Assembly (NCBI RefSeq): GCF_022811645.1
Contig: NZ_CP094534.1
Span: 3,224,001 to 3,288,000 of the forward strand
Source: Hymenobacter monticola
GTDB lineage: Bacteria > Bacteroidota > Bacteroidia > Cytophagales > Hymenobacteraceae
Direction of reading: 5' to 3'
DNA: 64,000 nucleotides
Shown: positions 9,297 through 51,438 of the stretch, in pieces
Layout: each line of letters opens with the position of its first letter
How positions within the stretch are numbered: the stretch's first letter is position 1
Translations under genes and position numbers: made by a program
Notes under the pieces: model-generated
The model's input: only the letters and a program-made list of their open reading frames with translations
What the model was told of the DNA's origin: nothing
Databases searched by the model: none

Positions 9297-9300
9297 CGAA

Positions 9301-13868: not shown

Positions 13869-13887
13869 GTGGCTGAGGGGGTGGGAA

Positions 13888-16800
13888 TTAGAAGCCTACG
13901 TTCAAACCAAACGAGAGCGAGCGCAGCGTGGGATATGCGTCGTAGGAGCCCGAGTAGGTCTTGTAGCTGTAAGGATTGTAAAAGTTGAGGGGGTTGATGG
14001 CCGTGAAGAACACGCGCACCGAGCCGATGCCCACGCGGTTGGTGAGGGTGGCGGGCAGGCTGTAGGAGATGTTGGCGTTGCGCATGCCCGCCGAGAACGA
14101 GTTGCGGAACCAGAACGACGAGGCCACGTCGTAGGTCGAGCCGAAGGCCGGGGCCGGGTAAGTGGCGTCCGGGGTTTCGGGCGTCCAGTGGTCGGCCCAG
14201 AACTCGGGGCGGTTCGAGGTGGCCGTGCCCTGCTTGCGGGCTGCCGACTCTACCATGGCCTGGCCGCCCCACGAGAGGCCCATCGTGGCCGAAACGCTCA
14301 GCGACTTGTAGGTGATGGTGGGGTTGAAGCCGATGCTGTAGTGGTTGTCCTGCTTGGGGGTCAGGAAGGTCTGGTCCACCTCCGTGATGAGGCCGTCGGG
14401 GGCCGTGTAGTTGCCGTTGGCGTCTTTGGGGCCGCGGATATCTTCGTAGTACAGCATGCCGGGCCGGGGGGCCGAGCCAAAAATCTTGTAGTTGGGGTTG
14501 CCTTGCAGCAGGGCGTCCACGTCGGCCTGAGAGCGCAGCATGCCCAGGTACTTGTAGCCCACCACGCCTTGGTCGGTCGAGCGGCCCGTCGGGTCGTCCC
14601 ACTGGCCGAGCTGGCCGCGGCTCACGTCCACTTTGATTTGCTTGTTGTCGTTCCAGGCAAAGAAGGTGTTCACGCGGAAGCTGAGGTCCTTGGTGATTTT
14701 GTCGCCGTAACCCACCGACACTTCGTAGCCGAAGCCGTCCACCGACGAGAAGTTTTCCGAGGGCAGCGCCGCGCCAATCACCTGCGGGGCCGAGTTCACC
14801 AGCGCCGTGAGCATGTTGTAGCGGTGGTCGTAGAAGCCGTCCATGGTGAACGACAGGCGGTTGTTCAGGAACTGGGCGTCGATGCCGGCGTTGTACTTGG
14901 TGTTGTCGTCCCAGCGGGCAGCGCGGTTGGCCATGGCGTTGTTGGCCGCAAACACCAGCGACCGGTCGCCGTTGCCGCCGAACACGGCGCCCTGGCCGGT
15001 TTTCAGGCCGTAGCTCGTTTGCCAGTTGAAGGCCTTGGTGGCGTCGCCGCCCAGGAAGCCCACCGAGGCGCGCAGCTTGAGCAGGTTCACGAAGCTCACG
15101 TTGTCGCGGAAGAAGTTTTCCTGCGACAGTACCCAGCCCACCGACACCGACGGGAACAAGCCCCAGCGGTACTCCGGTGCGAAGTTGGTGGAAGCGTCGT
15201 AGCGCAGCGTGGTTTCGAGCAGGTACTTGCCGTCGTAGTCGTAGTTGAAGCGGCCGGCGTAGGAGAGCGTGCCGGCTTCGCTGGCCGTTTCGGTGGTGGT
15301 TTGGGCGCCGGTGGCGAAGTTCTGGTAGTCGAGGTTGGGCACGCCGGGGGCCACAATGGCGCCTTCGGCCATGGCGGCCACGCCGTCCTGCATGGTTTCC
15401 GACTGCTCGAAGAAGGCAATGGCGGCCACGTGGTGCTTGCCAAACTGCCGGTCGTACGTGAGGTAGCCGTTCAGCTGGTAGCTGTCGAAAGTGGTCGGGT
15501 TCAGGCGCACCCGGTCGCCGTTGTTCAACACCACCGGGTTGCCGGTCACGTTGCCGCCGTAGATGTGCTTGTTGGTGCCCTGCATGGTCAGGCGGTACAC
15601 GTTGTACTTCGTGCCGTACTGCTTGCCGAAGCCGTTGTCCATGGTTTTGCCAAACAGCACGCGGGCTTTCAGGCCCTTGATGAACGGCAGCTCGTACTCG
15701 GCGCTGGCCGTCACGTTCAGGCCGGTGTTGCGCGTCGAAGTGTAGTTGTCCGAATTCTGCACCTCGAAGAAGTGGAAGGCGTCCACCGTATTCAGGTTGG
15801 CGCCATTGGCGTTGGTGAGCAGGGTGGGCAGGCCGTTCACGTACATGGGCACCCACTGCGGGGTGTAGAGCAAGCTCCTCATGTCGTTTTCCGCGTTTTC
15901 ACCGCCCTGCTTGAGGTAGTACATGCGCTTGTTCGACAAGTCGCCGCTCACCGACAACGCCACCTTCAGGCCGCGGGCCACCTTCACGTCGGTGCTGGCG
16001 CGGTAGGTCCACTTGTTGGCGTTGATGTTGTCGAAGTTGGCGTTCTGGTAGTTGTAGCTCACGCCGGCGAAGTAGGTCACCCGGTCGGTGCCGCCGCTCA
16101 TGTTCAGGGCGTGGCGCGTTACAATGGCGGGTTTCCAGGCCGTGCGCAGCCAGTCGTAGTTGCTGCCGGCGAAGCTGTCCAGCTCGTCCTGCGTGTAGTA
16201 GTTCGTGCTGGTGGGCGCCACGTTGTTGGCGCGGTTGATGTCGTTGAGGTAAGTGGCCTGCTGCAGGCCCGACATCATGCGGGGCAGCATCACGGCGTCG
16301 GAGGAGCCCACCGAGCCGCTGTAGCTGAACTTGGGCGCGCCCAGCTGGCCGCGCCGGGTGGCCACCAGCACCACACCCTGGGCCCCCCGGGCGCCGTAGA
16401 TGGCGGCCGAGGCGTCCTTCAAAATCGAGATGGATTCGACTTCCGACTGGTCGAGCACGTTGAAGTCGTCTTCGGTGCGCACCACGCCGTCAATCACGAA
16501 CAGGGGGCGCAGCGAGCCGCCGTCCTTCGAGAGGATGATGGGGTTGCGCACCGTGATGGCGCCGGCCTCGCCGGGGCGGCCCGTGCCGCCGCTCACGCCC
16601 ACGCCCGGCAGCTGTCCGGCCAGCGTGGCCGAAAGGCTGCCCGTGGGCAGGTCCTGAATTTTCTGCATGTCCACCGTGGCCACGGCCCCGGTCAGGCTGG
16701 CCCGGGTCTGGGTGCCGTAGCCCACCACCACCACTTCTTCGAGCGCGGCGTTGTCGTCTTCGAGGGCCACCTCCAGCGTGGTGCGGCCGTTCACCGCAAT

Positions 16801-17142
16801 TTCCTGCGTCTTAAAGCCGATGAAGCTGAAAATCAGCGTCTCGTTGCCGGTAGGCAGGTTGAAGTGGAAGGTGCCGTCGGGGCCCGAGCTGGTGCCGCTC
16901 TTGGTGCCCTTGATGAGCACCGTCACGCCCGGCAGCGGGTTGCCTTTCGCGTCCTTCACGATGCCCGTGAAGCCCACCTTGATGCCTTTCAGCGCCTTGG
17001 GCAGTTTGGGATTGACGGGCGGGCCGGCCACAGCCGCCAGGGCCGGGTTAGTGGCCAGCAGCGTGCCGCCCACGAGCAGCGCGCAGGCCAGCCGCGGGGC
17101 CACCGCCGACAGCGGCAGGGATTTGGGTAAGGAGTGGGCCAT
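13888..17142 (-). CDS. susC: SusC/RagA-family TonB-dependent outer-membrane transporter
   Basis: A 1084-residue outer-membrane transporter. After an N-terminal signal region (cleavage near NPALA) comes a carboxypeptidase-like beta-sandwich (about 57-130, GIVKDAKGNPLPGVTVLIKG). The SusC signature LEEVVVVGYGTQTRASLTGA and the plug with VDMQKIQDLP follow, then a long beta-barrel ending in a terminal Phe (SFGLNVGF). It works with SusD to import oligosaccharides in a TonB-driven way. It sits 42 bp downstream of the DUF3826 gene, which is first behind the motif at 17958-17972. This is the only SusC/D pair in the window, so other pairs may lie outside or serve the same locus. Confidence 0.96.
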   Translation of the reverse strand: MAHSLPKSLPLSAVAPRLACALLVGGTLLATNPALAAVAGPPVNPKLPKALKGIKVGFTGIVKDAKGNPLPGVTVLIKGTKSGTSSGPDGTFHFNLPTGNETLIFSFIGFKTQEIAVNGRTTLEVALEDDNAALEEVVVVGYGTQTRASLTGAVATVDMQKIQDLPTGSLSATLAGQLPGVGVSGGTGRPGEAGAITVRNPIILSKDGGSLRPLFVIDGVVRTEDDFNVLDQSEVESISILKDASAAIYGARGAQGVVLVATRRGQLGAPKFSYSGSVGSSDAVMLPRMMSGLQQATYLNDINRANNVAPTSTNYYTQDELDSFAGSNYDWLRTAWKPAIVTRHALNMSGGTDRVTYFAGVSYNYQNANFDNINANKWTYRASTDVKVARGLKVALSVSGDLSNKRMYYLKQGGENAENDMRSLLYTPQWVPMYVNGLPTLLTNANGANLNTVDAFHFFEVQNSDNYTSTRNTGLNVTASAEYELPFIKGLKARVLFGKTMDNGFGKQYGTKYNVYRLTMQGTNKHIYGGNVTGNPVVLNNGDRVRLNPTTFDSYQLNGYLTYDRQFGKHHVAAIAFFEQSETMQDGVAAMAEGAIVAPGVPNLDYQNFATGAQTTTETASEAGTLSYAGRFNYDYDGKYLLETTLRYDASTNFAPEYRWGLFPSVSVGWVLSQENFFRDNVSFVNLLKLRASVGFLGGDATKAFNWQTSYGLKTGQGAVFGGNGDRSLVFAANNAMANRAARWDDNTKYNAGIDAQFLNNRLSFTMDGFYDHRYNMLTALVNSAPQVIGAALPSENFSSVDGFGYEVSVGYGDKITKDLSFRVNTFFAWNDNKQIKVDVSRGQLGQWDDPTGRSTDQGVVGYKYLGMLRSQADVDALLQGNPNYKIFGSAPRPGMLYYEDIRGPKDANGNYTAPDGLITEVDQTFLTPKQDNHYSIGFNPTITYKSLSVSATMGLSWGGQAMVESAARKQGTATSNRPEFWADHWTPETPDATYPAPAFGSTYDVASSFWFRNSFSAGMRNANISYSLPATLTNRVGIGSVRVFFTAINPLNFYNPYSYKTYSGSYDAYPTLRSLSFGLNVGF

Positions 17143-17184
17143 AACAGTTTGGTGGGTTAAACTGAGAAAAAGGGTGTTGATGAG

Positions 17185-17880
17185 TTATTGGGGGGTGCCA
17201 GCAGCGGCGGCTTTACGGGCCGCGATGCGGGCCTGCCAGTCCTTGCCGGCCTGGTTCATGTCGATGCCGGCGGCCGAGAGGTAGTTGTTGATGCGGCCTT
17301 TGTATTTGCCAAACCAAGCGTGCTTCTGCTCGGAGGTGCCGCCGTCCATGGCGTGCTCGCGGGCCTCCGTCAGCCAGGCCAGCATCTGGGCTTTTTGCTC
17401 GGCCGTGAGGTTGGGCAGCATGTCGTTGTAGGCCGTCATCGTGATGGGCAGCACGCCGTAGGTCATGCCATCTTTCACCTGTTCCACCTGGGCGGGGGTG
17501 AGGCGGCGGCTCAGCTTCTTAAGGAACTGGGGGTGCAGCTTGTCGAGGGCGGCGGTGGTTTCGGTTTCCACCTTGGCCAGCTCTGCCTTGGTGGCGTCGG
17601 TCTGGGGCTGGGCTTTGAGGGCCGCCTTGCGCGTCTTTTGCTGCTCGTAGATGTCGTTGAGGGCCCGGTACTGGTCGGCAATAACGTCGCGCACCTGCAC
17701 CGAATCCTTGGCTTTCAGGCCGTCAATCTTGCCCACAATTTTGGCCGCCCGCTCCGTGATGGTGCGGGTGTAGGCGGCCTCCTTGGTTTCGGTGGGCGCG
17801 GGCGCCTGAGCCGAGGCCTGACCGAGGGTGGTTGCAGCGAGCAAACCTGTTAAAAACAGGCCTAGCAATGATTTATTCAT
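17185..17880 (-). CDS. Secreted DUF3826-family protein
   Basis: A 231-residue exported protein with signal peptide MNKSLLGLFLTGLLAATTLG and cleavage near ASAQA. The mature part is highly helical and charged. The residues around LTPAQVEQVKDGMTYGVLP and HAWFGKYKGRINNYLSAAGI match my memory of the DUF3826 family, which recurs beside SusC/D genes in pectin loci of Bacteroidota. Its biochemical role is not known to me. It is first in the operon that runs through SusC, SusD and the fucose/rhamnose genes, and its start is about 80 bp from the candidate AraC-type operator. Confidence 0.8.
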   Translation of the reverse strand: MNKSLLGLFLTGLLAATTLGQASAQAPAPTETKEAAYTRTITERAAKIVGKIDGLKAKDSVQVRDVIADQYRALNDIYEQQKTRKAALKAQPQTDATKAELAKVETETTAALDKLHPQFLKKLSRRLTPAQVEQVKDGMTYGVLPITMTAYNDMLPNLTAEQKAQMLAWLTEAREHAMDGGTSEQKHAWFGKYKGRINNYLSAAGIDMNQAGKDWQARIAARKAAAAGTPQ

Positions 17881-17906
17881 GTTTCACGGGTAGTGCTAGA
17901 ATAGGA

Positions 17907-17972
17907 GCAAGTTACCCGTGTTTTGAAGGCCCGCACTGTAACTTTTAACTAACTTATTGTACGATGTTAGCA
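17907..17972 (-). promoter_or_regulatory. Operator motif A and -7-like box upstream of the DUF3826-SusC operon
   Basis: On the minus strand 17972-17958 reads TGCTAACATCGTACA, matching the motif found at five other sites. A TAACTTG box (17913-17907), close to the Bacteroidota -7 consensus TAnnTTTG, lies 45 bp further on, and the start codon is about 27 bp beyond that. The same spacing occurs at sites B and E. Confidence 0.55.
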
Positions 17973-17998
17973 TGAGTATGAAGTTTAGATTAAGCCAA

Positions 17999-18039
17999 CT
18001 TCAGACCGTGCTAAAAAGTGCCTTTACAATAGTCTGAAG
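17999..18039. other. Small inverted repeat
   Basis: CTTCAGAC at 17999-18006 pairs with GTCTGAAG at 18032-18039 across a 25-nt loop, in the gap between the BASS transporter and the DUF3826 gene. It may be part of the terminator for the upstream minus-strand operon or part of the regulatory region. The signal is weak. Confidence 0.3.
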
Positions 18040-18163
18040 GGTGTTTTGGTAAGCCTGTCAGTCTGCGCAGTCATCAATAAAAAAGGGCCTAGATGGCTCA
18101 AAAACGCCACGCAATCGTTCCCGGAAATTTGTGATATATCGTATAATCAGGGGCCGGAATTCT

Positions 18164-19489
18164 CTACACCTCAGGCAATGCAACCGGGCTATATAGACCT
18201 TCTGGGGTAGGTGAGGGCCTCATCACCGGTCGCTTGCGCCAGTAGTTGGCCAGTATGGAACCCGAGATATTCATCCAGGGGCTGAACACCGCCGCGGGCA
18301 GCCCCACGGTGCCCAGCTTGCCCATGCTGCCGGCCAGGCCCGAGGCCATGCCGCCGTTTTGCAGCCCCACCTCAAAAGCCACCGTGCGGGCCGAATTCAC
18401 GTCGAGCCCGAACAGCCGGCTCAGCCAGTAGCCGAAGAAATACCCCGCCGCGTTGTGCAGCACCGAAGCCAGGAACAGCAGGAAGCCCACGCGCAGCAGG
18501 TTGTCGTGCCCCGCCGCCGTAGTCACCGCCGTGAAGTAAATGATGCCAAACATAGACAGATAAGGCATCACCTTATCGGTAGCGGGCAGCTTCTTCGCCA
18601 ATTGATGGTACAGCACACCCACCCCCACGGCCGCCCACAGGAAACTGAAAATCTCCAGCATCTGCAGCAGCTCGGGGCTGGCAAGGCTGCGCTCAAAGAA
18701 GGCCCACACGCCCAGCGGCAGCGCCGCCAGCCACAGCACCCCCGCGCCGGCCAGCAGCCCCACCACGCGCCGGCCTTGCAGCGGGGCGGTTTTCAAATAG
18801 TCGTGCAGCAGGGCGGCCATGATGGGCACCAGCACGATTTTGATGATTTCCATCATCATGCTCACAAACTTCACCTCGATGAGCGTGCCCGCCAGCAGCT
18901 TCAGCAAAAGCGGCGTGAGAAACGGCGCTGCCAGGGTAGCCATGGCCGTGACCACTACCGACAGCACCATGTTGGCCCGCGCCAGGTACACCATCACATT
19001 CGAAGCCAGCCCGCTGGAACAGGAACCAATGAGGATGATGCCGGCCGCAATTTCGGGCTCGAAATGGAACACCTTGGTGAGCAGCAGGCCCATGAGCGGC
19101 ATCACCGAAAAGTGGCAGAGCAAACCAATGAGCACGCCCTTGCCCGTGCTGCCCAGCCCCGAGAAGTCCCGGATGGTCATCTGAATGCCCATCCCGAACA
19201 TCACCAGCTGCACCACCACCAGAATCAACCATTTGTGGCGCAGGTCTACGCCGCCCCACTGCCGGAAGGCTTCGGGGTACACCATGCCGGCCACTACGGC
19301 CACAATAATCCAGGCGGTGTACTGGTAGCTTCGCAGCAGCGGCAGCGCCTTCAGGCCCAGGGCCAGGCCGACGGCAGCAACCACCGCGGCCGGCCGCCAC
19401 AGGGCGGCGTTTTGTTGGCTAATACCAAAAAGCAAGGCCACGCCCGCGAGGCCGGCAACAAGCAAGCAAAGTTGGAAGAGGCGATTCAT
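18164..19489 (-). CDS. BASS-family (bile acid:sodium symporter-like) membrane transporter
   Basis: From the ATG at 19489 the protein has 441 residues and about ten hydrophobic helices. The upstream open frame to 19639 is the shadow of the racemase-like gene and is not used. The segment TVAFEVGLQNGGMASGLAG is the BASS core signature, carrying the sodium-site residues, and GSCSSGLASNVMVYLA is the second crossover region. BASS proteins import organic acids with sodium. Here it closes an operon with an acid-sugar kinase and a RuBisCO-like decarboxylase, so uptake of an acid sugar is a reasonable guess. Confidence 0.85.
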   Translation of the reverse strand: MNRLFQLCLLVAGLAGVALLFGISQQNAALWRPAAVVAAVGLALGLKALPLLRSYQYTAWIIVAVVAGMVYPEAFRQWGGVDLRHKWLILVVVQLVMFGMGIQMTIRDFSGLGSTGKGVLIGLLCHFSVMPLMGLLLTKVFHFEPEIAAGIILIGSCSSGLASNVMVYLARANMVLSVVVTAMATLAAPFLTPLLLKLLAGTLIEVKFVSMMMEIIKIVLVPIMAALLHDYLKTAPLQGRRVVGLLAGAGVLWLAALPLGVWAFFERSLASPELLQMLEIFSFLWAAVGVGVLYHQLAKKLPATDKVMPYLSMFGIIYFTAVTTAAGHDNLLRVGFLLFLASVLHNAAGYFFGYWLSRLFGLDVNSARTVAFEVGLQNGGMASGLAGSMGKLGTVGLPAAVFSPWMNISGSILANYWRKRPVMRPSPTPEGLYSPVALPEV

Positions 19490-19550
19490 GGGGCGCGGTA
19501 ATTGGGGATGGCTGGTCCGTTTAATGATGGGCGGGGGGCAGGCCCCGCGC

Positions 19551-20213
19551 CTACAGCAGCTCGGTGGCCAGCTGGCGGATGGCGATGCCGGGGCTGGCCA
19601 GAATGGGCACCGGGCGGTCGGCCGCGTCCAGCGCATCAACCACCCGGGCCATGCTGGCCTGGGCCAGCACCACCACGTCCACTTTCGTCACCAGCTCCTT
19701 GAGGGCCGCGGCTACAATGGCGTCGTGCCGGGCCCCGTCTCCGTTCATCAGGGCTTCGAAGGCGCCTTCGCAGAGCACGGAGGTCAGCTCGATTTCCCGG
19801 CCGGCGAGTGCGGCGCGGCGCTGCACCAGGTCGGCGGTGGGGCCGAGGGTGGTGGGCAGCGTGGCGATGACGCCGATGCGCCGGCCGGCGCGCACGGCTT
19901 CGTCGGCCATGGGCTGGTCGACGCGCAGCACGGGCACCCCGGCCAGGCCGGCGGCCTGCTCCACCGCCGCGCCGATGGACGAGCAGGTGACCAGTACATA
20001 ATCGGCCCCGCCGGCCTCGGCCGAGTTCACGTAGCCCACCACGCGGCGGGCCACGGCGGGCGTCAGCGCGCCCTCGCGGTTGATGGTGCGCACCAGGCTG
20101 TCGTCAACAATATTAAAGGTTTGCACGCCCGGCAGGTGCTCGGCGCAAAGCTGCTGAAACACGGGCACCAGCGTGGCAGAGGTGTGAACGAGGGCGAGGG
20201 TTTTGGTTGACAT
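19551..20213 (-). CDS. Aspartate/glutamate racemase-superfamily protein
   Basis: A 220-residue protein with the Asp/Glu/hydantoin-racemase fold. The first catalytic Cys appears in VLVTCSSIGAA (about residue 80). At the second position the sequence reads VVVLAQASMARV, without the usual Cys: an Ala-Gln-Ala replaces it. That pattern belongs to family members that are not simple amino-acid racemases, some of which act as isomerases or decarboxylases on small acids. It lies 61 bp upstream of the BASS transporter and 174 bp downstream of the DUF1537 kinase. A role in handling an acid-sugar intermediate is inferred only from this position. Confidence 0.75.
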   Translation of the reverse strand: MSTKTLALVHTSATLVPVFQQLCAEHLPGVQTFNIVDDSLVRTINREGALTPAVARRVVGYVNSAEAGGADYVLVTCSSIGAAVEQAAGLAGVPVLRVDQPMADEAVRAGRRIGVIATLPTTLGPTADLVQRRAALAGREIELTSVLCEGAFEALMNGDGARHDAIVAAALKELVTKVDVVVLAQASMARVVDALDAADRPVPILASPGIAIRQLATELL

Positions 20214-20387
20214 AGAAACAGACTATTTATCGTGGTGAATGAAAATCCAGCCGGCGCGGCTGGGAGACCTCACCCCCGGCCCCGGTTCGCTTGAAGCTCG
20301 AAGCCTTGGGGAGAGGGGTGCCATACGACGGCTTGTGTTTGCGGGCGTCTGGCTCCCTTCTTTTCGGAAAGGGCCAGGGGTGAAGTT

Positions 20388-21725
20388 TTAAGGCATTCGG
20401 CCTTCGAGCAGCACGCCGAAGTATTCCGGCGCGCCCACCTGCCCGCCTTTGAAATTGACTTCGACGCCGTGCAAGGCAGAGCCCGGCGCGCTGGCGCGGC
20501 ACAGCGGCGCGCCGGGGTAGAAGGGCGCTATCATTTCCACCGCTTCGATGCCCATAGCGCGGGCGGCGTAGCTGGAGGTGTCGCCGCCGGCCACCACCAC
20601 GCGGCGCACTCCGGTTTGTCGCACGGCTTCGCGAGCGATGAGGCCCAGGGCAGTGCCGAGGGCTTCGGCCGGGATGCTTTGCGAGGGTGCGGTAGTCCCA
20701 CCATTGGTGTGCACGATGACGCTCCGGCCTTCGCTCAGCAGCGCAACGGCCTGTTGCCCGTAAGAATCCAAAGAAGCCGCTTGGTTGCCGCCCGCCGCCA
20801 GCGCTTCGGCATTCAGCACCACTTCAGAAAAACCGTTGGCTTTGGCCCAGCCAATCTGCCCGGCCGTGACCGGTGAGCAACTGCCCGATACCACCAGCAG
20901 CGGCGCGGCGCGGCCGGAGTTGGGCCAGGCTGTCACCGGCTTCAACGTGTCGTTTTGCTGCCAGAGCTGCCCCAGCGCCATTTCAATGCTCGAGGACCCC
21001 ACCGAAAACAGGGGCCCGGTTTTGCCAGCGGAGCCATCGATAACTGCACCGATACCTAACAGTTGCTCCGCGTAAAGCGCATCAAACAGGATAACTTCAG
21101 CTCCTGCCTTCACCTGTGCGTCAATGGCTGCCTGCATTTCGGACAGCGGCCGCGTGATTTGCAGGATGTCGAGCAGCCCAGTTTGAAGGTCGGTTTGCCG
21201 GGCCAAGTGCAAGCGCAGGTCGCTTTCGTCGGCGGGCGTGGTGGGGTGCCGGCTCATCGAGGGGTGCCGGTCGAGGCGGAAGATGCCGCCGTCGCTGCCG
21301 ATGCCCAAGCGCGCAAACAGGTTGCCGAAGGCACAGTAGCGGCCCAGCGGCGGCGCGGCCACCAGCAGCGGCACGAAGGCACCCGGAAACACGCCGCGCC
21401 CCACCTCAGTGGCCCGGCCAATGCTGCCGATGGTGGGCGACGAATCGAACGTGGAGCACACCTTATAATGCACGTGCCGCGGCCGCAGCTCTCGTAGCTT
21501 TTCAAAAGCTGGCTTTAGCACTGCCTGCATGGCATCGGGCGGCATGGCGCGGGTGAGACCGGCCACGCCAATGGCATCCAGGCCAGGGTAGGCGGCCAGC
21601 TGGGCGGCCGTGGGCGGCTCGATGAACAGCGCCGTGCGCGCCCCGGCCCGGCTCAGGAATTCGAGCGCGTCGGTGCTGCCGGTGAAGTCGTCGCCGTAAT
21701 AGGCGAGGAGTAGCGGCTTGCTCAT
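20388..21725 (-). CDS. DUF1537 four-carbon acid-sugar kinase, OiaK-like
   Basis: A 445-residue member of the acid-sugar kinase family once called DUF1537. The substrate domain opens with LLLAYYGDDFTGSTDALEF (Asp12-Asp13, Thr15-Gly16), and the C-terminal nucleotide domain has HTNGG near residue 343 and VVVAGGDTSSYAARAMGI. Family members phosphorylate erythronate, threonate, or 3-oxo-isoapionate in the D-apiose pathways. Its start overlaps the stop of the RuBisCO-like gene by 4 bp (ATGA). Kinase plus RuBisCO-like decarboxylase is the pairing described for 3-oxo-isoapionate, which makes this an OiaK candidate. The GH140 apiosidase elsewhere in the window supports that reading. Confidence 0.85.
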   Translation of the reverse strand: MSKPLLLAYYGDDFTGSTDALEFLSRAGARTALFIEPPTAAQLAAYPGLDAIGVAGLTRAMPPDAMQAVLKPAFEKLRELRPRHVHYKVCSTFDSSPTIGSIGRATEVGRGVFPGAFVPLLVAAPPLGRYCAFGNLFARLGIGSDGGIFRLDRHPSMSRHPTTPADESDLRLHLARQTDLQTGLLDILQITRPLSEMQAAIDAQVKAGAEVILFDALYAEQLLGIGAVIDGSAGKTGPLFSVGSSSIEMALGQLWQQNDTLKPVTAWPNSGRAAPLLVVSGSCSPVTAGQIGWAKANGFSEVVLNAEALAAGGNQAASLDSYGQQAVALLSEGRSVIVHTNGGTTAPSQSIPAEALGTALGLIAREAVRQTGVRRVVVAGGDTSSYAARAMGIEAVEMIAPFYPGAPLCRASAPGSALHGVEVNFKGGQVGAPEYFGVLLEGRMP

Positions 21726-22966
21726 TTGCTACCGAATTTTTCAACCGCCGCCGCAAATTCCGGATGTTGCGCGGCGGTTTCCATCAGACTGCGGCCGTCC
21801 ACGGCACCTTGCCAGGCTTGTTGCAGGGCTTGCACACCGGCGGCCGGGCCCATGGGGTGGGCGAGGATGCCGCCGCCGGCCATGTAAAGCAAATCGGTGG
21901 TGCGAGTGCGGCGGTAGGTTTCGAACGCCTGCCCGCCCCACTGGCCCGACGACACCACGGGCAGTACCGAGTAGCCGCCCAGCAGTGGCGCCTGGCAGGC
22001 CTCAATGGAGGCCACCACGCTGTCGTCCGACTCCCAAAACTTGTTCTGAATACCGTTGACGTGCAACTGGTCGACGCCCGCCAGCCGCCACAGCTTCTGG
22101 TAGGCGCGGAAGTCGATGCCCAGCAGCGGGTGGCGCGTCAGCATGCCCCAGCCGTTGCGGTGCCCGTGAATGGCCAGGGCCCGCTGCTCGCAGATTTTGC
22201 GGGTGCCGGCCAGGCCCACGCTGTTGATGCTCACCATGGCGCAGCTGCCGCCGGCGCGCACCACGTACTCGTAGCGGCGCAGCATGTCGTCAATTTCCCC
22301 GCTGATGTTGAAGGCGTACATCACCTTTTTGCCGTTGCGGTCGGCGTGGCGGTTGACAGCAGCCATCACGGCATCGACGCGCGCCTCGAAGGGCGAGTTG
22401 GCGGCGGCCATCTGCAGCTCGTCGTCCTTCACGAAATCGATGCCGGCCTCGGCCAGCGTATGCACCAGTCCGGCCGTTTGCTCCGGCGTGAGGCCGATGC
22501 TGGGCTTGATGATGGTGCCGATGAGCGGCCGGCCCTGCACGCCGGTCAGCGCCCGACAGCCCACCACCCCAAACGCCGGCCCGGCAAAGTGCGTCGCATA
22601 CGAAGCCGGCACGTCAATGTCCATCAGCTTCAGACCCGTAAACTGCCGGATTTCATACAGATTCCCTTGCAGCGTGGACACCAGCAAGGGTAGGTTGTAG
22701 CCAAAATTCTCCACCGACCACGACACCCGCACCCTTGCCCGATGATAGAGCCCGCTGCTGCTCGTCGCGCCCGGAATAGCGGGCTCACGCACCGTTTCCA
22801 ACTCCTCCACCGACTCTACGCGGGCGGCGAAGCGCTGCTTCAGCTCCGCCGTTTCGCCCGGTACGGCCACGAAGGTGCCGGACGACTGCTCGCCGGCCAG
22901 CACGGCCGCCGCGGCGGCAGGGTCGAAGGGTGTTTCGATGTAGTAAGTGGCGGTGATGCGTTCCAT
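21722..22966 (-). CDS. RuBisCO-like protein (RLP), candidate 3-oxo-isoapionate-4-phosphate decarboxylase
   Basis: From the ATG at 22966 the protein has 414 residues. The frame extends upstream only through a palindromic repeat, so that part is dropped. RuBisCO large-subunit hallmarks are kept: Lys154 in GTIIKPSIGL and the metal-site block FVKDDELQ with Lys180, Asp182 and Glu183. Loop 6 reads HVNGIQNKFWES rather than the carboxylase form, and the phosphate-binding end is GGGILAHPMGPAAG. It is therefore not a carbon-fixing RuBisCO. RLPs coupled to a DUF1537 kinase decarboxylate 3-oxo-isoapionate 4-phosphate to an erythrulose phosphate in D-apiose breakdown (OiaX). The 4-bp overlap with the kinase gene supports that role. 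Confidence 0.85.
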   Translation of the reverse strand: MERITATYYIETPFDPAAAAAVLAGEQSSGTFVAVPGETAELKQRFAARVESVEELETVREPAIPGATSSSGLYHRARVRVSWSVENFGYNLPLLVSTLQGNLYEIRQFTGLKLMDIDVPASYATHFAGPAFGVVGCRALTGVQGRPLIGTIIKPSIGLTPEQTAGLVHTLAEAGIDFVKDDELQMAAANSPFEARVDAVMAAVNRHADRNGKKVMYAFNISGEIDDMLRRYEYVVRAGGSCAMVSINSVGLAGTRKICEQRALAIHGHRNGWGMLTRHPLLGIDFRAYQKLWRLAGVDQLHVNGIQNKFWESDDSVVASIEACQAPLLGGYSVLPVVSSGQWGGQAFETYRRTRTTDLLYMAGGGILAHPMGPAAGVQALQQAWQGAVDGRSLMETAAQHPEFAAAVEKFGSK

Positions 22967-22976
22967 ATGGTAAGGT

Positions 22977-23059
22977 GTAGCGAGGACTCTGAAAGTCCGC
23001 GCATGGGCGTTCTGAATGGTGCGGGCGGGCAGGCGCGGACTCGCAGAGTCCACGCTACA
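22977..23059. repeat. Palindromic repeat R1, degenerate copy
   Basis: The right arm (GCGCGGACTCGCAGAGTCCA, ending at about 23058) is intact. The left arm is mutated (CGAGGACTCTGAAAGTCCGC). It fills the junction between the TIM-barrel gene and the RLP gene. Confidence 0.85.
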
Positions 23060-23962
23060 TCAGCTCTGAAAAACCGACTTTAAATAGGCCGTATTTGCCC
23101 CAAAATTCTTCTTCACGTTGCGCGGGTCGGCGGCGTCGCGGGAGCGTTCAATCACCAGCCAGCCTTCCCAGCCGATATCGGCCAGGGTTTGCTTTACCTT
23201 GTTCATGTCGAGGCGGGTGTTGTTTTGCAGCCACACGCCGTCCTCGTCGGTGGCGTGCATCTGGCAGATGTGCCTGCGGCCCAGGATGCGCAGTTCCTCG
23301 TTCAGGTCGCGGCCCTCCTTTAGCGGGTTCGAGAAGTTGAAGTAAATCTGGATGTTTTTCGAGCCGATTTCCTTCAGCAATTCCACTTCGCCTTTGGCAT
23401 CCAGCGCGGTTTCGATGCCGACGATGACGCCCGCTTTCTTGGCCATTTCGCCCACCACCTTCAGCCGCTCCACGATGGCGGGGCGCAACTCGGGATTCTT
23501 GCGCAAGTCGCCTTGCGTGCCGAGGGGCAGAAAGGCCACCTTCACGTTCAACTGCTTCATGGTGTCGAGGCAGTCCTGAATCATGCGCTGGTAGGTGGGA
23601 CGCGTGGCGAAAGACTGGGCGTAAAAGCCCGTCATCGCCAGCGAACAGATTTCCAGGTTCAGCTCCTTGGCCTTATCGATAAACTGCTGGCGGATTTCGG
23701 GTTTGGCGAGCTGATTGTCGAAGGTTTCGCGCTGGCCCAGGCCGCCCATGTCGATTTCCACACCATCGGCTCCAATGTCTTTGGTGAGTTGAAGGGCGCC
23801 GAGCTTCTGCCGCTTCAGAATCATCAAGTCAACCACCGCTACTTTATAGGTCAGCTTCTTTTTAGTAGGCGCAAGGGCGCTGGCCCAACCGGGCAGGAGC
23901 AGGCCGCCGGTGAGCAAGGCGCTGGCGGAGAGGAAATCGCGGCGGGAAAAGGACTGACTCAT
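23060..23962 (-). CDS. Tat-exported sugar isomerase/epimerase-like TIM-barrel protein
   Basis: A 300-residue protein. The N-terminus MSQSFSRRDFLSASALLTGG is a twin-arginine signal, so the folded enzyme should be exported. The mature part follows the AP-endonuclease-2/xylose-isomerase-like TIM barrel: DGVEIDMGGLGQ, the metal-ligand region VIVGIETALDAKG, FNFSNPLKEGRD, HICQMHATDEDG and WLVIERSRDAADPR. Relatives are often labelled sugar phosphate isomerase/epimerase, but periplasmic ones act on free sugars or acids. It lies between the acetylesterase and the RLP-kinase pair. In other apiose loci a protein of this fold decarboxylates 3-oxo-isoapionate, but the Tat signal argues for a different, periplasmic step. 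Confidence 0.8.
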   Translation of the reverse strand: MSQSFSRRDFLSASALLTGGLLLPGWASALAPTKKKLTYKVAVVDLMILKRQKLGALQLTKDIGADGVEIDMGGLGQRETFDNQLAKPEIRQQFIDKAKELNLEICSLAMTGFYAQSFATRPTYQRMIQDCLDTMKQLNVKVAFLPLGTQGDLRKNPELRPAIVERLKVVGEMAKKAGVIVGIETALDAKGEVELLKEIGSKNIQIYFNFSNPLKEGRDLNEELRILGRRHICQMHATDEDGVWLQNNTRLDMNKVKQTLADIGWEGWLVIERSRDAADPRNVKKNFGANTAYLKSVFQS

Positions 23963-23973
23963 GACGGGTTAGA

Positions 23974-24063
23974 GGTAGGGGCGGGGCTTGCCCCCGCCCG
24001 TCGTTGGACGAAATCGTTGTGAGAGTGCGAACGCCCGGGCGGGGACGAGCCCCGCCCCTACGG
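23974..24063. repeat. Palindromic repeat R4, copy 1
   Basis: GTAGGGGCGGGGCTTG on the left and its reverse complement (CGAGCCCCGCCCCTAC) on the right enclose about 50 bp. The stop codon of the acetylesterase gene lies inside the right arm. A second copy is at 39927-40037. Confidence 0.85.
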
Positions 24064-25566
24064 ACTGACGTGGTCGGTGCGGAAAGGGCGGGCCGGCAGG
24101 CCAGCTTCGGAAAACAGGTTGGGTTGCGCCACTTCGTCCCAGCCGAAGCGAACGGCCGTGGGCCGCTTCACGCCCGGGGCCGTCACCAGCACCTGCGGAC
24201 CCTGGATGCGGGCCTGCGCGGGTATAAATACCCCATCGGCTCCGGCAATGGTGAAGTCCGTCAGCGCCTTGCCATCTTTGCTGACCAGCGGCGCGGCCGA
24301 GACAAACGAAATCGTGGCTACATCGCCCTTCACTTTCAGGCTACGGAAAACCGGCCCTTCGGCCACCACGCCAGACATTTTATAAGTCTTGGCCAAAGCC
24401 AGCAAAGCCAGTCGCCGCCCAATTTCCCATTTGAAGCCGGGGTGAATGCCGCCCTCGGTGTTGGCCAAATCGGTGGTTTCTATCATGCCCGTGTGCGGCA
24501 CTTGCAACACGGCCGCCTGCGCCTCGCGAAACAGCGACAGCGTTTCGCGCGTCAGCACCACTTTGTCGTGGGTGTCGGAGTACTTGAACGGGGCCAGCGA
24601 CACGTAGTAGAACGGCAGATTGGCGTCGCCCCAGGCCGCGCGCCAACTGCTGATGAGCGTGTGCATTTTTTGGGTATACGTCGTGGTTTCGGCCAGAAAG
24701 CAGTTGCTTTCGCCTTGGTACCAGAGGAAACCACGGGCCGCCAGCGGCGCCAGCGGCTTCACCATCGTCTCCCAGAACTTGCCGGGGTCGCCGTCTACTT
24801 TCTTGCCCGCGAAGGCCGGGTCTTTGGCAAAAGCTTCTTCCGAAATCCAGGGCTCGATGCGGCTGCCGGGTACCGATGTGGCCACCATGCCCACCGGCAC
24901 GTTGAGGCGCTTGTTAAGCTCCTTGGCGAAGAAATAAGCGGCGGCCGAGAACGAGCGCAGGGCCGAATCCTGGGCCACGGCCCAGTCGCGGTGCAGGGTA
25001 TCGGGCTTGGGCAGCGTCTTGCGGTTGACCAGGAAAATGCGGATGGCGGGGTTGTGGGCCACGTTCAGCTCGTCTACCGGGTTGGGGCCGGGCACGTCGG
25101 GACGCGTCACCTTGCTGTTTTTACGCATGGTGTACTCCATGTTCGACTGCCCCGAGCACACCCACACTTCGCCCACCAGAATGTTGCGCAGCCGAATGGT
25201 ATTGCTGCCGCTGATAACCAGCTCGGCGGGAGTGGCCGAGGCTTTGAGCGGCTTCAGCAGCACCTGCCACTTGCCCGCAGCATCGGCCTTGGTGCTGGGG
25301 CGCTGGCCCGCAAACTGTACCGTCACCACTTCGCCCGGCGCGGCCGTGCCCCAGATGGGCACGGGCTTCTCGCGCTGCAGCACCATGTCGTGCCCCAGAA
25401 TGCGTGGCAAAGTGATGGTGGCGTGGGCGGGAATGGTTAAAAAAAGTGCCAGCACAATGTAGAGCCGCGACACTTCGCGTCTCGGCGTCTGCGCCATTTG
25501 GAGAGCGTCGTTCAACGCCGAGACGCGAAGTGTCGCGGCTCTACACAGTTCTATTGCTTTCCTCAT
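24058..25566 (-). CDS. Sialate O-acetylesterase-like SGNH esterase with a repeat inside its signal peptide
   Basis: A 502-residue secreted esterase if it starts at the ATG at 25566, whose ATGA overlaps the stop of the upstream gene. SGNH/sialate-O-acetylesterase motifs are clear: VWVCSGQSNMEYTM (the Ser nucleophile), GFLWYQGESN and the late GGIHPGFKWEIGRR (catalytic His). It should remove acetyl groups from sugars; pectin and RG-II are acetylated. The frame between the n-region MRKAIEL and the hydrophobic IVLALFLTIPAHA is entirely the R2 palindrome (25458-25545). Other starts, 25497 (ATG) and 25473 (GTG), would lie within that repeat. The frame continues to 25785 inside the neighbouring gene and that part is rejected. 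Confidence 0.85.
   Translation of the reverse strand: MRKAIELCRAATLRVSALNDALQMAQTPRREVSRLYIVLALFLTIPAHATITLPRILGHDMVLQREKPVPIWGTAAPGEVVTVQFAGQRPSTKADAAGKWQVLLKPLKASATPAELVISGSNTIRLRNILVGEVWVCSGQSNMEYTMRKNSKVTRPDVPGPNPVDELNVAHNPAIRIFLVNRKTLPKPDTLHRDWAVAQDSALRSFSAAAYFFAKELNKRLNVPVGMVATSVPGSRIEPWISEEAFAKDPAFAGKKVDGDPGKFWETMVKPLAPLAARGFLWYQGESNCFLAETTTYTQKMHTLISSWRAAWGDANLPFYYVSLAPFKYSDTHDKVVLTRETLSLFREAQAAVLQVPHTGMIETTDLANTEGGIHPGFKWEIGRRLALLALAKTYKMSGVVAEGPVFRSLKVKGDVATISFVSAAPLVSKDGKALTDFTIAGADGVFIPAQARIQGPQVLVTAPGVKRPTAVRFGWDEVAQPNLFSEAGLPARPFRTDHVSP
25458..25545. repeat. Palindromic repeat R2, copy 1, inside a signal-peptide coding region
   Basis: TGTAGAGCCGCGACACTTCG and the inverse arm (CGAAGTGTCGCGGCTCTACA) enclose about 30 bp. 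It lies between the start codon and the hydrophobic core of the acetylesterase signal peptide and is free of stops in that frame. Related copies are at 35376-35470 and 55779-55886. Confidence 0.85.
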
Positions 25567-28500
25567 TTCTTCACCAGCCAAATGACTTCCGAGCCCGTTG
25601 CCGTGCTGTTCAGGGTAATGGATTTTCCACCTTTCACCGTCTCCTTCGGGTCGGTCAACGCACCGGTTTTCGGGTTGATGTGACGCACCGCAAATGTGCC
25701 GCTCATCCCCGATAAATCGACCTGCACCGGCGACTGGCCCTCGCGGTACAGCAGCAAACTGGTTTTGCCGTCGCTCATCGCCCACTGGTTGGCGGGCTTG
25801 CCGGGCAATTCTATCGGTTTCATATCCGAAATGGCCGAGGCAAAACGGGCATCGGCCACGCGGGGCAGGCTGGCCATTGAGCCGCCCGCCAGCAGCACCG
25901 CCCAGCCGAAAGCGTCGTAGCCATCGGCCGAGTAGAGCACCGCTTTGTCGGGGAATTGCTGACGGTACTCGCGCACGGCCCGATATACCTGCTCGAACGA
26001 ACTGCGCTTGGGCGGCGTGAGGCGGGCGTGCTGGCGCGGGGCCAGGTTCTGGCCACCGGCCGGGGCGTAGGCCTGGCCGTTGAACTGGTAGTGCCAGTAG
26101 TTGATGTCGATGACATCGACCACTTTAGCCCGCACCGGGTCGGCCAGAATGGCGTCCTGCACGTCTTTGGTGGTGCTCAGGGCAATGGTGGCGTGCTGGC
26201 CGGTTTCGGTTTCCCACTCTTTGATAGTGTCGAGCCAGAACTGCACGAAGGCCAGCGGACCGGTGAATTCGGCCCCGATAAGATGAATGACGCCGGTCTG
26301 GCCCTTGAAATTGTCGAGGCACTGGCGGATGTAGGCGCGGTGCAGCGGTCGGCGCGTGACATCGGTCACGTCGTAAAACTGCTCGGCCATGAAAATGCGC
26401 TTGTCGCCGGCGTAGGGCGGCGGCTCCGGGAAGCCGGTGTTGTTCACATTGTTCACCGGTCGCCAGGGAAAGTCGGCGTAGTGCGCCCCGGCCTCGATGA
26501 TGTTGTGCTGGAAGTAGTGCTGATTGAGCAGCACGAGGCCTTTTTGGTCGGCCAGGTCGGCAAACTGGTGCAGGCGGCTCCAGTACCAGGCGTTGTACTT
26601 GGTGAGGTCGTAACGGCTGAGGCCGTCCCAGGCCAAATCCTTGCCGCTGCGGGCAAAGGGCAATTCGTAGAACGGCGCCCACACCTCGCCGTCCATGCGG
26701 CGAATGCGCTCGTGGTCGTCGCGCCGGCGCTCGTACCACAGGCCGTAGTTGTGGTGCAGGGCTACCACGTTTTGCGCCCGCATCGAGTCGGTCAGTTCCG
26801 GCAAGTCATCGGTCAGCCCGCGCCCAATCTGGCCCGGCACAAAGCGCGTGATGTGGGGCTTGGGGTTGAGCAGGCCGTAGGGACGGGCGCTGCCGTTCCA
26901 CCACGGCACCTCCTGGCGGCGGCCCAGCACGAGGGCGTTGCCGCGCACCAGCACGCCCTGCGCCACGTGCAGCGGAGCCGCATAGGTGGGCGCCGGGGCT
27001 GCCTTCACCTTCAGCTTGTCGATGCTGGGGGCCGAGTTTTGCGTGGCAATGGGCTGGCGCGTGGTCGCCGCTTTCACCAGCTCCAGCACGGTAGGCGCGG
27101 GGTTCACTGAGAGGCGCGTCAATTCCTGCGCCACGGCCACTTTGGGGCTGCTGCTGGCCTCGGTGGGCACGGGCAGCAGGATGGCGCGGGTCTTGGCGGC
27201 GTCGCCGAGCCGCTCCTGTAGCTGCGCGTAGTAGAGGCTGCGCGGGTTGATATTTTCGTTGGACTGGTCCCAGAAGCCGTTACCGGCGAACTGCGCCCAG
27301 GTGCCAAAGGCCCAGTTCTGCGCCGTGGGCGGGCGGTAGCAGTCCACGCGGGAGGCGGTGCATTGCCAAAACACGCTGTTGGCCACGGCCCAACCGGCGC
27401 CCTGCCCGTCCTGCTCGCGGTTGCCGAAGCGCAGGGCCTGGCCGTATTCCTTCACAATGTCGAACAGCACGCCCGAAGCCCAGCTGTCCACGCCGCCGCT
27501 GAAGCTCAGGGCCTGTTCGGCGTCGCACTGCACAAAGGCATTGGGGCCGGGCGCGCAAAAGCCCAGCGCAAAATCGTGGTAGCCATTCTCCGCATACAGC
27601 CGCTGAAACAGCGTTTGCGAGCCCAGCGTGTAGAAGGTGTTGCGCCGCTCGTTGCCGATTTCTGACACCGGCGCCGTCGAAATACAGTCTTCCACCGTCA
27701 GGCGCCGGGCCGTGGCCTGCGCCAGCACGGCCGAGCCCGCGAAGTGCCGGAAGCTGACCTGCCGCACCCAAGCATCCTGCGCGTTTTCAATATCAATAGC
27801 TACCCAGCGGTGGTTTTCGTCTCTGGGGTTGGCGGCGTCAAAGGTTGATTTGAGCCGCAGGTTCTCTACGCCTACCTGCGAAACCAGGCCCGGCCAGGTA
27901 TAGCGGGCCACGGTGCCGCCGCCATAGGCTTGGTCGAGCGCGGTAGTTAGCGGCGCATCCAGTGTGATGCCGTTGGCATCCACGGCCACTATCTGCCGGT
28001 CCCAGGCCAGGTCGCGCTGGCCGGGTTTCCAGCCTAGTGAGGACAGGCCGCCACCGAAGGTTTCCATGCCCAGCCGGTGTACCCAGGCGGCCGTGCTGGG
28101 CCGCCGCACCTGCACCCGGTCGCCCACCTTGAAGGCGCTGGCATTGGCAATTTTAACAGTACGAGCATTTACCGGCACGTACTTATCAGCGACAGCGACG
28201 GCGGTTTCAAACTTGCGGTCGTTGCGCCCACCCATGGTCAGCAGGTGGTCGCGGCTTACGCCCGTGCCGATGACGACGGTTCCCCCGTCGCTCATGCAGC
28301 TGCCGCGCAGCACCACGCCCGAAGCGCGGATAAACAGCCGCCCTGCTACCTCGTAAGTGCCTTTATCCAACAACACCGCGCCGCGCAGCCCATCCTTGCC
28401 CAGCGGTAAACCGGCCACGTAGTCCAGCGCCGCTTGAATGCGCGCCGTGGCATCGCCTGCCTTCACCGGCACCGTTACCTTAATAGCCGCCATTGGAATA

Positions 28501-28706
28501 GCCGCCTCGCCCGCCCGGTAGCCCGCATAGGAAAAATCGGGCACCCGATTGCCTAGCGAATCCGGCGCGTAGCTCAGCTTGCCATCCTTGTACTCAATGG
28601 GGCCGGGCGGCGGCACGGGCTTAGCGGGCTTCTGCGCAGCGGCCGGGCCGGCGGCGAGCAGGCCGGAGAGGAGCAGGAAGTAAACGGTGCGGGTGGGGAG
28701 GGGCAC
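25563..28706 (-). CDS. Large secreted protein: beta-helix domain joined to a TIM-barrel-like DUF6298-type domain
   Basis: About 1047 residues from the GTG at 28706, giving a good signal peptide (PTRTVYFLLLSGLLAAGPA). An ATG at 28766 also exists, but it lies within a palindromic hairpin. Residues about 70-520 look like a right-handed parallel beta-helix (DATARIQAALDYVAGLP, LLDKGTYEVAGRLFIRASGV, VVLRGSCM), the fold of pectate lyases and GH28. Residues about 590-950 look like a TIM barrel: VVALHHNYGLWYERRRDD, YNAWYWSRLHQFADLADQ, IHLIGAEFTGPLAFVQFWLD and DVIDINYWHYQFNG. I recall similar Bacteroidota proteins under DUF6298. A pectin lyase or glycosidase is likely, but no activity can be named. It precedes the acetylesterase with an ATGA overlap. 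Confidence 0.75.
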   Translation of the reverse strand: MPLPTRTVYFLLLSGLLAAGPAAAQKPAKPVPPPGPIEYKDGKLSYAPDSLGNRVPDFSYAGYRAGEAAIPMAAIKVTVPVKAGDATARIQAALDYVAGLPLGKDGLRGAVLLDKGTYEVAGRLFIRASGVVLRGSCMSDGGTVVIGTGVSRDHLLTMGGRNDRKFETAVAVADKYVPVNARTVKIANASAFKVGDRVQVRRPSTAAWVHRLGMETFGGGLSSLGWKPGQRDLAWDRQIVAVDANGITLDAPLTTALDQAYGGGTVARYTWPGLVSQVGVENLRLKSTFDAANPRDENHRWVAIDIENAQDAWVRQVSFRHFAGSAVLAQATARRLTVEDCISTAPVSEIGNERRNTFYTLGSQTLFQRLYAENGYHDFALGFCAPGPNAFVQCDAEQALSFSGGVDSWASGVLFDIVKEYGQALRFGNREQDGQGAGWAVANSVFWQCTASRVDCYRPPTAQNWAFGTWAQFAGNGFWDQSNENINPRSLYYAQLQERLGDAAKTRAILLPVPTEASSSPKVAVAQELTRLSVNPAPTVLELVKAATTRQPIATQNSAPSIDKLKVKAAPAPTYAAPLHVAQGVLVRGNALVLGRRQEVPWWNGSARPYGLLNPKPHITRFVPGQIGRGLTDDLPELTDSMRAQNVVALHHNYGLWYERRRDDHERIRRMDGEVWAPFYELPFARSGKDLAWDGLSRYDLTKYNAWYWSRLHQFADLADQKGLVLLNQHYFQHNIIEAGAHYADFPWRPVNNVNNTGFPEPPPYAGDKRIFMAEQFYDVTDVTRRPLHRAYIRQCLDNFKGQTGVIHLIGAEFTGPLAFVQFWLDTIKEWETETGQHATIALSTTKDVQDAILADPVRAKVVDVIDINYWHYQFNGQAYAPAGGQNLAPRQHARLTPPKRSSFEQVYRAVREYRQQFPDKAVLYSADGYDAFGWAVLLAGGSMASLPRVADARFASAISDMKPIELPGKPANQWAMSDGKTSLLLYREGQSPVQVDLSGMSGTFAVRHINPKTGALTDPKETVKGGKSITLNSTATGSEVIWLVKK

Positions 28707-28737
28707 AGGGGAAGTTGTTTTCAAGCAGCAACCTAAA

Positions 28738-28781
28738 AGCACGTCATGCTTCGCTACGCTCGGCATGACGTGCTTTTTTTT
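28738..28781 (+). terminator. Hairpin repeat R3 with a T-run
   Basis: A 12-bp perfect stem (AGCACGTCATGC, with its complement ending at 28774) is followed on the plus strand by eight T. It has terminator form in the plus direction but lies between two minus-strand genes, so it may be a repeat rather than a working terminator. An ATG within it extends the frame of the gene ending at 25563. Confidence 0.45.
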
Positions 28782-30459: not shown

Positions 30460-30904
30460 AAGCGGGGTGGGGAGTTTGGATAAAGCGAAATAACAGGACA
30501 AAATTCCCTGGCACCTATACCATTTTCTCGACCCTGTGTAGGATGTTATCATTCGCTTTCTGTAAAGAGGCCGCTACTCAGTATGGCTAAGTAAATGCTC
30601 ACCCCGCCTCCAATAATCTACTTATTTACCAATGCTGATTTAAGCTGATTAACTACTGCAAAAAGAACGTAAAGAGGGATTTAGTGCAGCTAAGGCCAGC
30701 CAGGCCCCACTGCGTAGTAAAGGACTTAGGGCACGAATGAACAGTTTGTGACGCCTCACCCGCCTAAAATCCGATGGTAACTGAAGCTGCTTCCACTCCT
30801 AATTTATCGATTGTGTAAACCCCGCTTTTGCGATGGCAACATGCTATAACAGCCGGCGAACATGGTACACAGAACCAGCCCACGTGCCCGATAATTTTGA
30901 CCTG
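30460..30904. promoter_or_regulatory. Divergent promoter region with operator motif B (445 bp)
   Basis: This gap separates the large minus-strand and plus-strand enzyme operons. On the minus strand 30551-30537 reads TGATAACATCCTACA, and a TATTTCG box follows 45 bp later at 30492-30486, about 27 bp before the pectate lyase start. The remainder toward the plus-strand gene (30552-30904) is AT-richer than the genes. I see no second clear copy of the motif there and no RNA gene. Confidence 0.6.
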
Positions 30905-51357: not shown

Positions 51358-51428
51358 TGTAGCGTGGACTCTGCGAGTCCGCGCCCGCACGAATCCCCAA
51401 CGCGCGGACTCGCAGAGTCCACGCTACA
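51358..51428. repeat. Palindromic repeat R1, copy 4
   Basis: Both arms are intact (TGTAGCGTGGACTCTGCGAG and inverse) around about 18 bp, ending 10 bp before the apiosidase-like gene start. Confidence 0.9.
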
Positions 51429-51438
51429 TTTCTCCTGC

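Follow-up and report, generated by a model that had tools for sequence, protein, structure and literature searches.

A RuBisCO-like protein and an acid-sugar kinase in a conserved four-gene cassette of Bacteroidota pectin loci: a possible route for L-aceric acid

The closest described relatives of the genes analysed here belong to D-apiose catabolism, where OiaK acts as 3-oxo-isoapionate kinase and OiaX, a RuBisCO-like protein (RLP), as 3-oxo-isoapionate-4-phosphate decarboxylase. The original paper on these RLP reactions is reportedly that of Carter et al. from 2018. RLP reactions on 3-oxo-isoapionate-4-phosphate are described in the available excerpt of PMC6302742. An adjacent kinase-RLP pair that keeps the RLP catalytic residues is also present in the soil bacterium Hymenobacter monticola, within the 64,000-nucleotide stretch of DNA analysed in this study (the window; Table 1). 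This DUF1537 kinase and RLP form a conserved four-gene cassette with an Asp/Glu-racemase-fold protein and a BASS-family carboxylate carrier. We lean, by a little, towards the reading that the cassette degrades L-aceric acid from rhamnogalacturonan II (RG-II), and that it would do so by OiaK/OiaX chemistry on a homologous beta-keto acid.

Other known systems are related to the cassette by chemistry or by setting. The 3-oxo-tetronate kinase OtnK belongs to the same kinase superfamily and works with the decarboxylase OtnC by the same logic of phosphorylation followed by decarboxylation; OtnC is not known to be an RLP. The transketolase-type D-apiose route (AplK, AptA, AptB), described in the excerpted part of PMC13001218, uses different enzymes, homologues of which occur in some cassette loci. 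The same excerpt reports apiose degradation for Bacteroides, and on that basis apiose use in Bacteroidota is not itself new. BT1003, the GH127 enzyme of B. thetaiotaomicron, is the aceric acid hydrolase of RG-II according to the available parts of PMC5698469 and PMC10850190; GH127 enzymes of this type free the sugar that the cassette would go on to degrade.

The RLP and kinase genes overlap by 4 bp, such that at their junction (...GGTAGCAAATGAGC...) the RLP stop codon TGA and the kinase start codon ATG share the letters ATGA. Both reading frames are open and exactly placed, which confirms the overlap described in an earlier note on this DNA; a gene fusion was ruled out, as these are two overlapping genes. 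Comparisons were made over 80 related loci found by a search with the RLP alignment and, because several of these lie on short contigs, all counts of neighbouring genes are lower bounds. In 74 of the 80 the RLP is followed directly, on its own strand, by the kinase, and the pairing is therefore not a matter of chance.

Among curated families, the RLP scores best against OiaX (NF042437, 516.8 bits), below the 700-bit equivalog cut-off, with rubisco_III next (230 of the 497.45 bits needed) and MtnW lower still (119.8 of 513.6 bits); the closest PDB chain is 3nwr (412.7 bits). The kinase likewise scores best against OiaK (NF042436, 395.3 bits), also below a 700-bit equivalog cut-off, followed by OxoTetrKin (166 of 350 bits). 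These profile scores bear out the earlier note, which had likened the pair to OiaK/OiaX; tetronate kinases and MtnW are more distant. The OiaX of R. etli is ∼52% identical to the window RLP and its neighbouring kinase 42% identical to the window kinase, and the OiaX cut-off was passed in none of 395 Bacteroidota genomes.

Residues K154, K180-D181-D182-E183, H267, H269, H302 and K309 are kept in all 53 aligned RLPs of the cassette clade described below, so that the Lys154 and KDDE metal block first noticed in the window protein extend to the whole clade. The non-carboxylase loop 6 proposed at the same time stands in part: the residues around K309 differ, but the loop-6 lysine, K309 itself, is retained. 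Here we take K309 to align with RuBisCO K334, the RuBisCO residue equivalences being assumed. The 15 RLPs outside the clade also keep K154, K180, D182, E183, H302 and K309, with H302 replaced in one of them. Gly344, by contrast, is found in 53 of 53 cassette-clade RLPs and gives way to Ala, Val or Ile in 11 of the 15 others, which suggests that it would suit a substrate with a bulkier side group. Because OiaX and OiaK are the closest families by far and the RLP catalytic residues are intact, homology gives good support to the predicted reaction type, in which a branched 3-oxo acid is first phosphorylated and then decarboxylated.

All four cassette genes were found in 69 of the 80 loci (kinase in 75, racemase-fold protein in 73, BASS carrier in 70). 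A stricter, overlap-filtered set of open reading frames (ORFs) gave 75, 68 and 70, respectively, and the full cassette in 66 of 85 loci once five plasmid loci had been added. Within the filtered set, neither ApnO nor ApnL stands beside the cassette in any of the 66 full-cassette loci. In this the cassette departs from the R. etli locus annotated oiaX (L095), which encodes OiaX, a kinase, TPI, RpiB, an ApnO-like dehydrogenase, an ABC carrier, a Gfo/Idh oxidoreductase and ApnL; the names ApnO and ApsD, and their assignment to these genes, are our assumption. None of ApnO, ApnL, TPI or RpiB adjoins the cassette, which has the racemase-fold protein and the BASS carrier instead. The cassette-type RLP (>490 bits) was present in eight of 395 genomes drawn evenly from Bacteroidota, making it widespread but uncommon.

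The racemase-fold protein passes PF01177 with 77.2 bits (gathering score 31), and its AlphaFold model (pLDDT 95) has glutamate/aspartate racemases as its best Foldseek matches (E 2.9e-8). C77 is invariant in 38 of 38 aligned sequences. The second catalytic cysteine of Asp/Glu racemases would presumably fall in the motif LAQASM, a place that we assumed rather than aligned, and Q185-A186-S187-M188 are found there in all 38. With a single acid-base residue, the protein would be better suited to isomerase or decarboxylase activity than to two-base racemisation. The carrier scores 208.6 bits against PanS (cut-off 400). Two further proteins of the window are isomerase-like: the Tat-type isomerase-like protein upstream of the RLP occurs in only 8 of the 80 loci and is therefore not part of the core, while the fucose-isomerase-like protein has homologues in two, L023 (74% identity) and L080 (59%). 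A structure model of the latter was too poor to be used (pLDDT 55). The whole cassette was also seen, together with pectin genes, on a 235-kb plasmid of Rufibacter tibetensis typed as mobilizable (L094; RLP 75%, kinase 60%, racemase-fold protein 66% and carrier 67% identical). It further appears among SusC/SusD genes in a record titled Williamsia sp. (Actinomycetota; L045), where the RLP groups with those of Bacteroidota and the title looks wrong.

Phylogenetic analysis separated the cassette proteins from their relatives. A first RLP tree had 70 rows, namely the window and 69 of 104 loci with an RLP match, leaving out close relatives, short ends and all genome-collection loci except L013. A second tree of 68 rows dropped L013, which had fallen outside the cassette clade, and L092, which had fallen inside; its groups were named once the first tree was known. 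In the second tree a single branch (SH-aLRT 95) divides the cassette clade of 53 RLPs, including four (L018, L081, L086, L091) that lack the full cassette, from 15 others that come from ApnO/ApnL, TRAP or other contexts. The first tree recovered the cassette split with support of 96, and the kinases are divided in the same manner, 50 from 14, by one branch with support of 97. True membership of OiaX and OiaK was thus rejected: the pair is below both cut-offs, on the other side of the branch and among different neighbours.

Some RLPs at or beyond the edge of the clade deserve mention in their own right. L013 (genome G141), from another family of the same order, has an RLP of ∼50% identity on a long branch; the 4 kb read contain neither the racemase-fold protein nor the carrier, and its genome has no GH127 or GH143 marker. 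On five Pseudomonadota plasmid loci (L098, L120, L123, L124, L125), RLP-kinase pairs are accompanied by SDR dehydrogenases and by carriers of the TRAP or KDG type, with no ApnO or ApnL within the stretch read; these pairs perhaps serve a third substrate or entry point.

The glycosidases that accompany the cassette bear on its substrate. GH127 was the commonest within 10 kb of the RLP (37 of the 80 loci by BLAST), ahead of GH2 (23), GH106 (16), GH78-type (12 and 10), GH141 (9), GH143 (7) and GH140 (3); one query was used per family, except for GH2, which was counted separately. In 20 of the 80, GH127 lies immediately upstream of the RLP in the same orientation, at a spacing of -30 to 118 bp, and these loci come from Chitinophagaceae, Sphingobacteriaceae, Flectobacillaceae, Flavobacteriaceae, Balneolaceae and unplaced Bacteroidota. 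Of the 34 neighbouring GH127 proteins that were clustered, 27 match the ‘aceric acid hydrolase’ model NF049879 at E <= 1e-285, which corresponds to about its 950-bit cut-off. The GH127 of the H. monticola genome (G000) exceeds this equivalog cut-off at 1152.8 bits.

Genome-wide counts covered the genomes behind 45 of these loci, most of them from isolates. An aceric-type GH127 was present in all 45 (at least 660 bits and at least 46% identity to the L043 copy), other GH127 relatives reaching at most 349 bits, with two exceptions, both second copies (569 and 552 bits). PF13204, the apiosidase family, exceeded 340 bits in 39 genomes, scored 67–254 bits in five and was absent from one (L080); all six genomes with a weaker match or none keep GH127. 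Among relatives of the same genus, GH127 and GH143 mark one and the same set of 20 genomes, and the 11 genomes with the RLP all belong to it. Fisher values for the genus, which assumed 70–90 genomes and took no account of relatedness, were given no weight. The G000 genome has a single RuBisCO_large gene, and the closest named relatives of its product are Hymenobacter proteins (95–96% identity). The control genome of Bacteroides ihuae gave GH127 and GH143 family matches and no RLP match.

The route outlined here for aceric acid is a proposed one. Aceric acid sits in side chain B of RG-II. It is 3-C-carboxy-5-deoxy-L-xylose, as stated in the accessible part of PMC5698469. The GH127 hydrolase, which is present and matches its family, would free the sugar, and the BASS carrier would import it as an acid. 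Aldose-ketose isomerisation may then yield the 2-ketose HOCH2-C(=O)-C(OH)(COO-)-CH(OH)-CH3, a beta-keto acid; this step would perhaps be catalysed by the racemase-fold protein or by some other isomerase. By analogy with OiaK, the DUF1537 kinase would phosphorylate the CH2OH beside the ketone, and the RLP, by analogy with OiaX, would remove the branch carboxylate to give a 5-deoxypentulose 1-phosphate, from which an aldolase may release dihydroxyacetone phosphate (DHAP) and acetaldehyde. The excerpt of PMC6302742 proposes a related cleavage, in which 5-deoxyribulose 1-phosphate is split into DHAP and acetaldehyde. The 2-ketose of aceric acid differs from 3-oxo-isoapionate in its side group alone (CHOH-CH3 for CH2OH), so that the known OiaK/OiaX chemistry would carry over. 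We see about an even chance that these genes form the first bacterial catabolic route for aceric acid, with the RLP as its key decarboxylase, that this route evolved from an apiose-type OiaK/OiaX pair to which a racemase-fold isomerase and a carboxylate carrier were added, and that it spread across Bacteroidota, Verrucomicrobiota and Planctomycetota.

The principal alternative is the one put forward in the earlier note, in which the two proteins are OiaK and OiaX, their substrate is 3-oxo-isoapionate derived from D-apiose, and other enzymes take the place of apiose dehydrogenase, ApnL and ApnO. OiaK and OiaX are indeed the closest curated families, the catalytic residues are common to cassette RLPs and those of ApnO/ApnL contexts, and the window encodes a GH140 apiosidase, the family scoring strongly in most of the 45 genomes. 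Nevertheless, both scores lie well under the equivalog cut-offs, and the pair falls on the other side of the supported branch. The earlier note had suggested that other genes or novel enzymes might supply the missing upstream steps; the search beyond the window found no match to the diagnostic ApnL and ApnO in the whole G000 genome. Over 46 genomes (the 45 and G000), ApnL gave one match below its cut-off (268 of 750 bits) and ApnO none that was convincing, only one 21.5-bit fragment. A carboxylate carrier fits an acid sugar and not neutral apiose, and it is GH127 that tracks the cassette and not the apiosidase, near in only three loci. Furthermore, an AptA-type protein of the transketolase apiose route is present in 27 of the 46 genomes (at least 58% identity and 366 bits, the next match at 280), in which the cassette would be redundant for apiose. 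In L079, L084, L085 and L087 the cassette has homologues of all three E. coli proteins, AptA, AptB and AplK, as direct neighbours, and a complete set of this kind would leave it without a need in apiose use. It is as if two RG-II sugars were handled together at these four loci. The other 19 genomes, G000 included, have no AptA-type protein, and a Gfo/Idh oxidoreductase lies near the RLP in 18 of the 80 loci and in the G000 flank; there, the cassette could in principle serve apiose. The genomes lacking an AptA-type protein also count against aceric acid, yet overall the apiose reading is not supported and we regard it as unlikely.

It is less probable again that the cassette degrades some other branched hydroxy acid, apionate- or pantoate-like and imported ready-made, and sits among RG-II genes through co-regulation with pectin. 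The carrier is closest to the ketopantoate/pantoate carrier PanS, although below its cut-off, and related RLP-kinase pairs elsewhere have SDR dehydrogenases and TRAP or other carriers as neighbours, but neither ApnO nor ApnL. This explanation is at odds with the physical link of the cassette to an aceric acid hydrolase and with the restriction of the RLP, within the genus, to genomes holding GH143 and aceric-type GH127 (11 of 11). As for the RLP being a true carboxylase or an MtnW-type enolase, its membership of the RuBisCO family, KDDE metal block and loop-6 lysine speak for it, but the scores (230 bits for type III RuBisCO and 120 for MtnW, against 517 for OiaX) and the acid-sugar kinase as next gene in nearly every locus rule this identity out to all practical purposes.

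Several further observations weigh against an aceric acid route. In G000 itself 59 kb separate the GH127 gene from the RLP and the two belong to different runs, the apiosidase being closer at 28 kb, and none of the three Hymenobacteraceae loci has GH127 within 10 kb. Of the 34 neighbouring GH127s, seven do not reach the limit applied for aceric acid hydrolase, and nine of the 20 same-genus genomes with GH127 lack the RLP. Genome-wide co-occurrence alone is unable to separate aceric acid from apiose, because GH127 and GH140 both mark RG-II degraders. The RLP-abutting GH127-family gene of Croceibacterium (L097), considered as a second case, was dropped as not of the aceric type: its best PDB match is 5opj, and 5mqo, which we take to be BT1003, came last of six. 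In the first tree, moreover, the RLPs of ApnO/ApnL contexts do not form one clade, and the OiaX-annotated L095 adjoins the cassette clade on a long branch of unsure placement, and that tree therefore does not fix what came first near the root. Finally, the isomerase step has no more than candidates, and a sugar isomerase with a racemase fold would be without precedent as far as we know.

The surroundings of the cassette are those of a pectin locus (Table 1). The minus-strand run reads, in order, PelZ-like lyase, DUF6298 protein, SASA esterase, Tat-type isomerase-like protein, RLP, kinase, racemase-fold protein, BASS carrier, DUF3826, SusC and SusD. A plus-strand run encodes GH28, GH95, GH2, SSF, DHDPS-type, fucose-isomerase-like, apiosidase (PF13204), GH43-like and BT_1020-type proteins. 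To the right of the window follow genes for GH78, GH88, GH141, DUF5703, GH106 and GH127, along with transporters, and since pectin genes thus continue, a region of at least ∼90 kb looks dedicated to RG-II. PF24067 was taken as GH143 and PF13204 as GH140, on which footing the GH140-type apiosidase that the earlier note placed in the same pectin locus is real.

Table 1. Features of the window and its flank, with coordinates counted from the first letter of the window unless a contig or locus is given.
Feature	Position	Strand	Remarks
Window	G000:C1:3224001-3288000		6.12-Mb genome, Hymenobacter monticola
DUF3826, SusC-like and SusD-like genes, downstream of cassette	12057..17880	-	PF12875, PF13715/PF07715, PF07980
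BASS-family carboxylate transporter, PanS-like	18164..19489	-	PF01758, 107 bits; first Met codon at 19489
Asp/Glu-racemase-fold protein, possible isomerase or epimerase of the route	19551..20213	-	PF01177, E 2e-21; invariant C77
DUF1537 (SBD_N + NBD_C) acid-sugar kinase	20388..21725	-	445 aa; PF07005 + PF17042
RLP, proposed decarboxylase of a branched 3-oxo-acid sugar phosphate	21722..22966	-	414 aa; PF02788 + PF00016; ATG at 22966
Tat-signal-like sugar phosphate isomerase/epimerase-type protein, just upstream of RLP	23060..23962	-	PF01261, 89 bits; N-terminal RR motif
SASA-type carbohydrate esterase	24058..25785	-	PF03629; start uncertain
DUF6298 protein, in the minus-strand run of the RLP	25563..28766	-	PF19815, 819 bits
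PelZ-like pectate lyase, at the head of the minus-strand run	28828..30552	-	NF041900, 144.5 bits, below cut-off of 840
L-fucose-isomerase-like protein, divergent, candidate aldose-ketose isomerase	47868..49532	+	554 aa; PF02952, 30.9 bits (weak)
GH140-type apiosidase, divergent operon	51364..52830	+	PF13204, 390 bits
BT_1020-like protein, RG-II Dha hydrolase type	53799..55760	+	PF24067, 398 bits
GH127 aceric-type gene of G000	L102:1971-4289 = G000:C1:3305971-3308289	-	NF049879; 59 kb from RLP

Downstream of the SusC/SusD genes, positions 7238-10975 (-) encode a Zn-alcohol dehydrogenase, an SDR, an amidohydrolase closest to L-fucono-1,5-lactonase (294 of 400 bits) and an FAA hydrolase closest to 2,4-didehydro-3-deoxy-L-rhamnonate hydrolase (343 of 500 bits), which likely make up a non-phosphorylating route for L-rhamnose or L-fucose. 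Proteins of the DUF6298 and DUF5703 (L101 16036-18411) families lie near the RLP in 5 and 14 of the 80 loci, respectively, and are possibly RG-II enzymes still to be assigned. A scan for promoters and terminators performed at chance level, and Rfam gave no match over 17000-31000.

The breakdown of RG-II to monosaccharides is known, all but one linkage being cleaved in B. thetaiotaomicron according to the available excerpt of PMC12282258. Among the matches listed for the open-access literature, there was no described route for aceric acid catabolism after release and no paper on RLPs in pectin loci. If the aceric acid route is correct, RLPs would gain another substrate, and a function could be given to many genes that at present carry the name ‘ribulose-bisphosphate carboxylase large subunit family protein’. 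What happens to aceric acid would, moreover, become a matter for direct assay with a handful of purified proteins.

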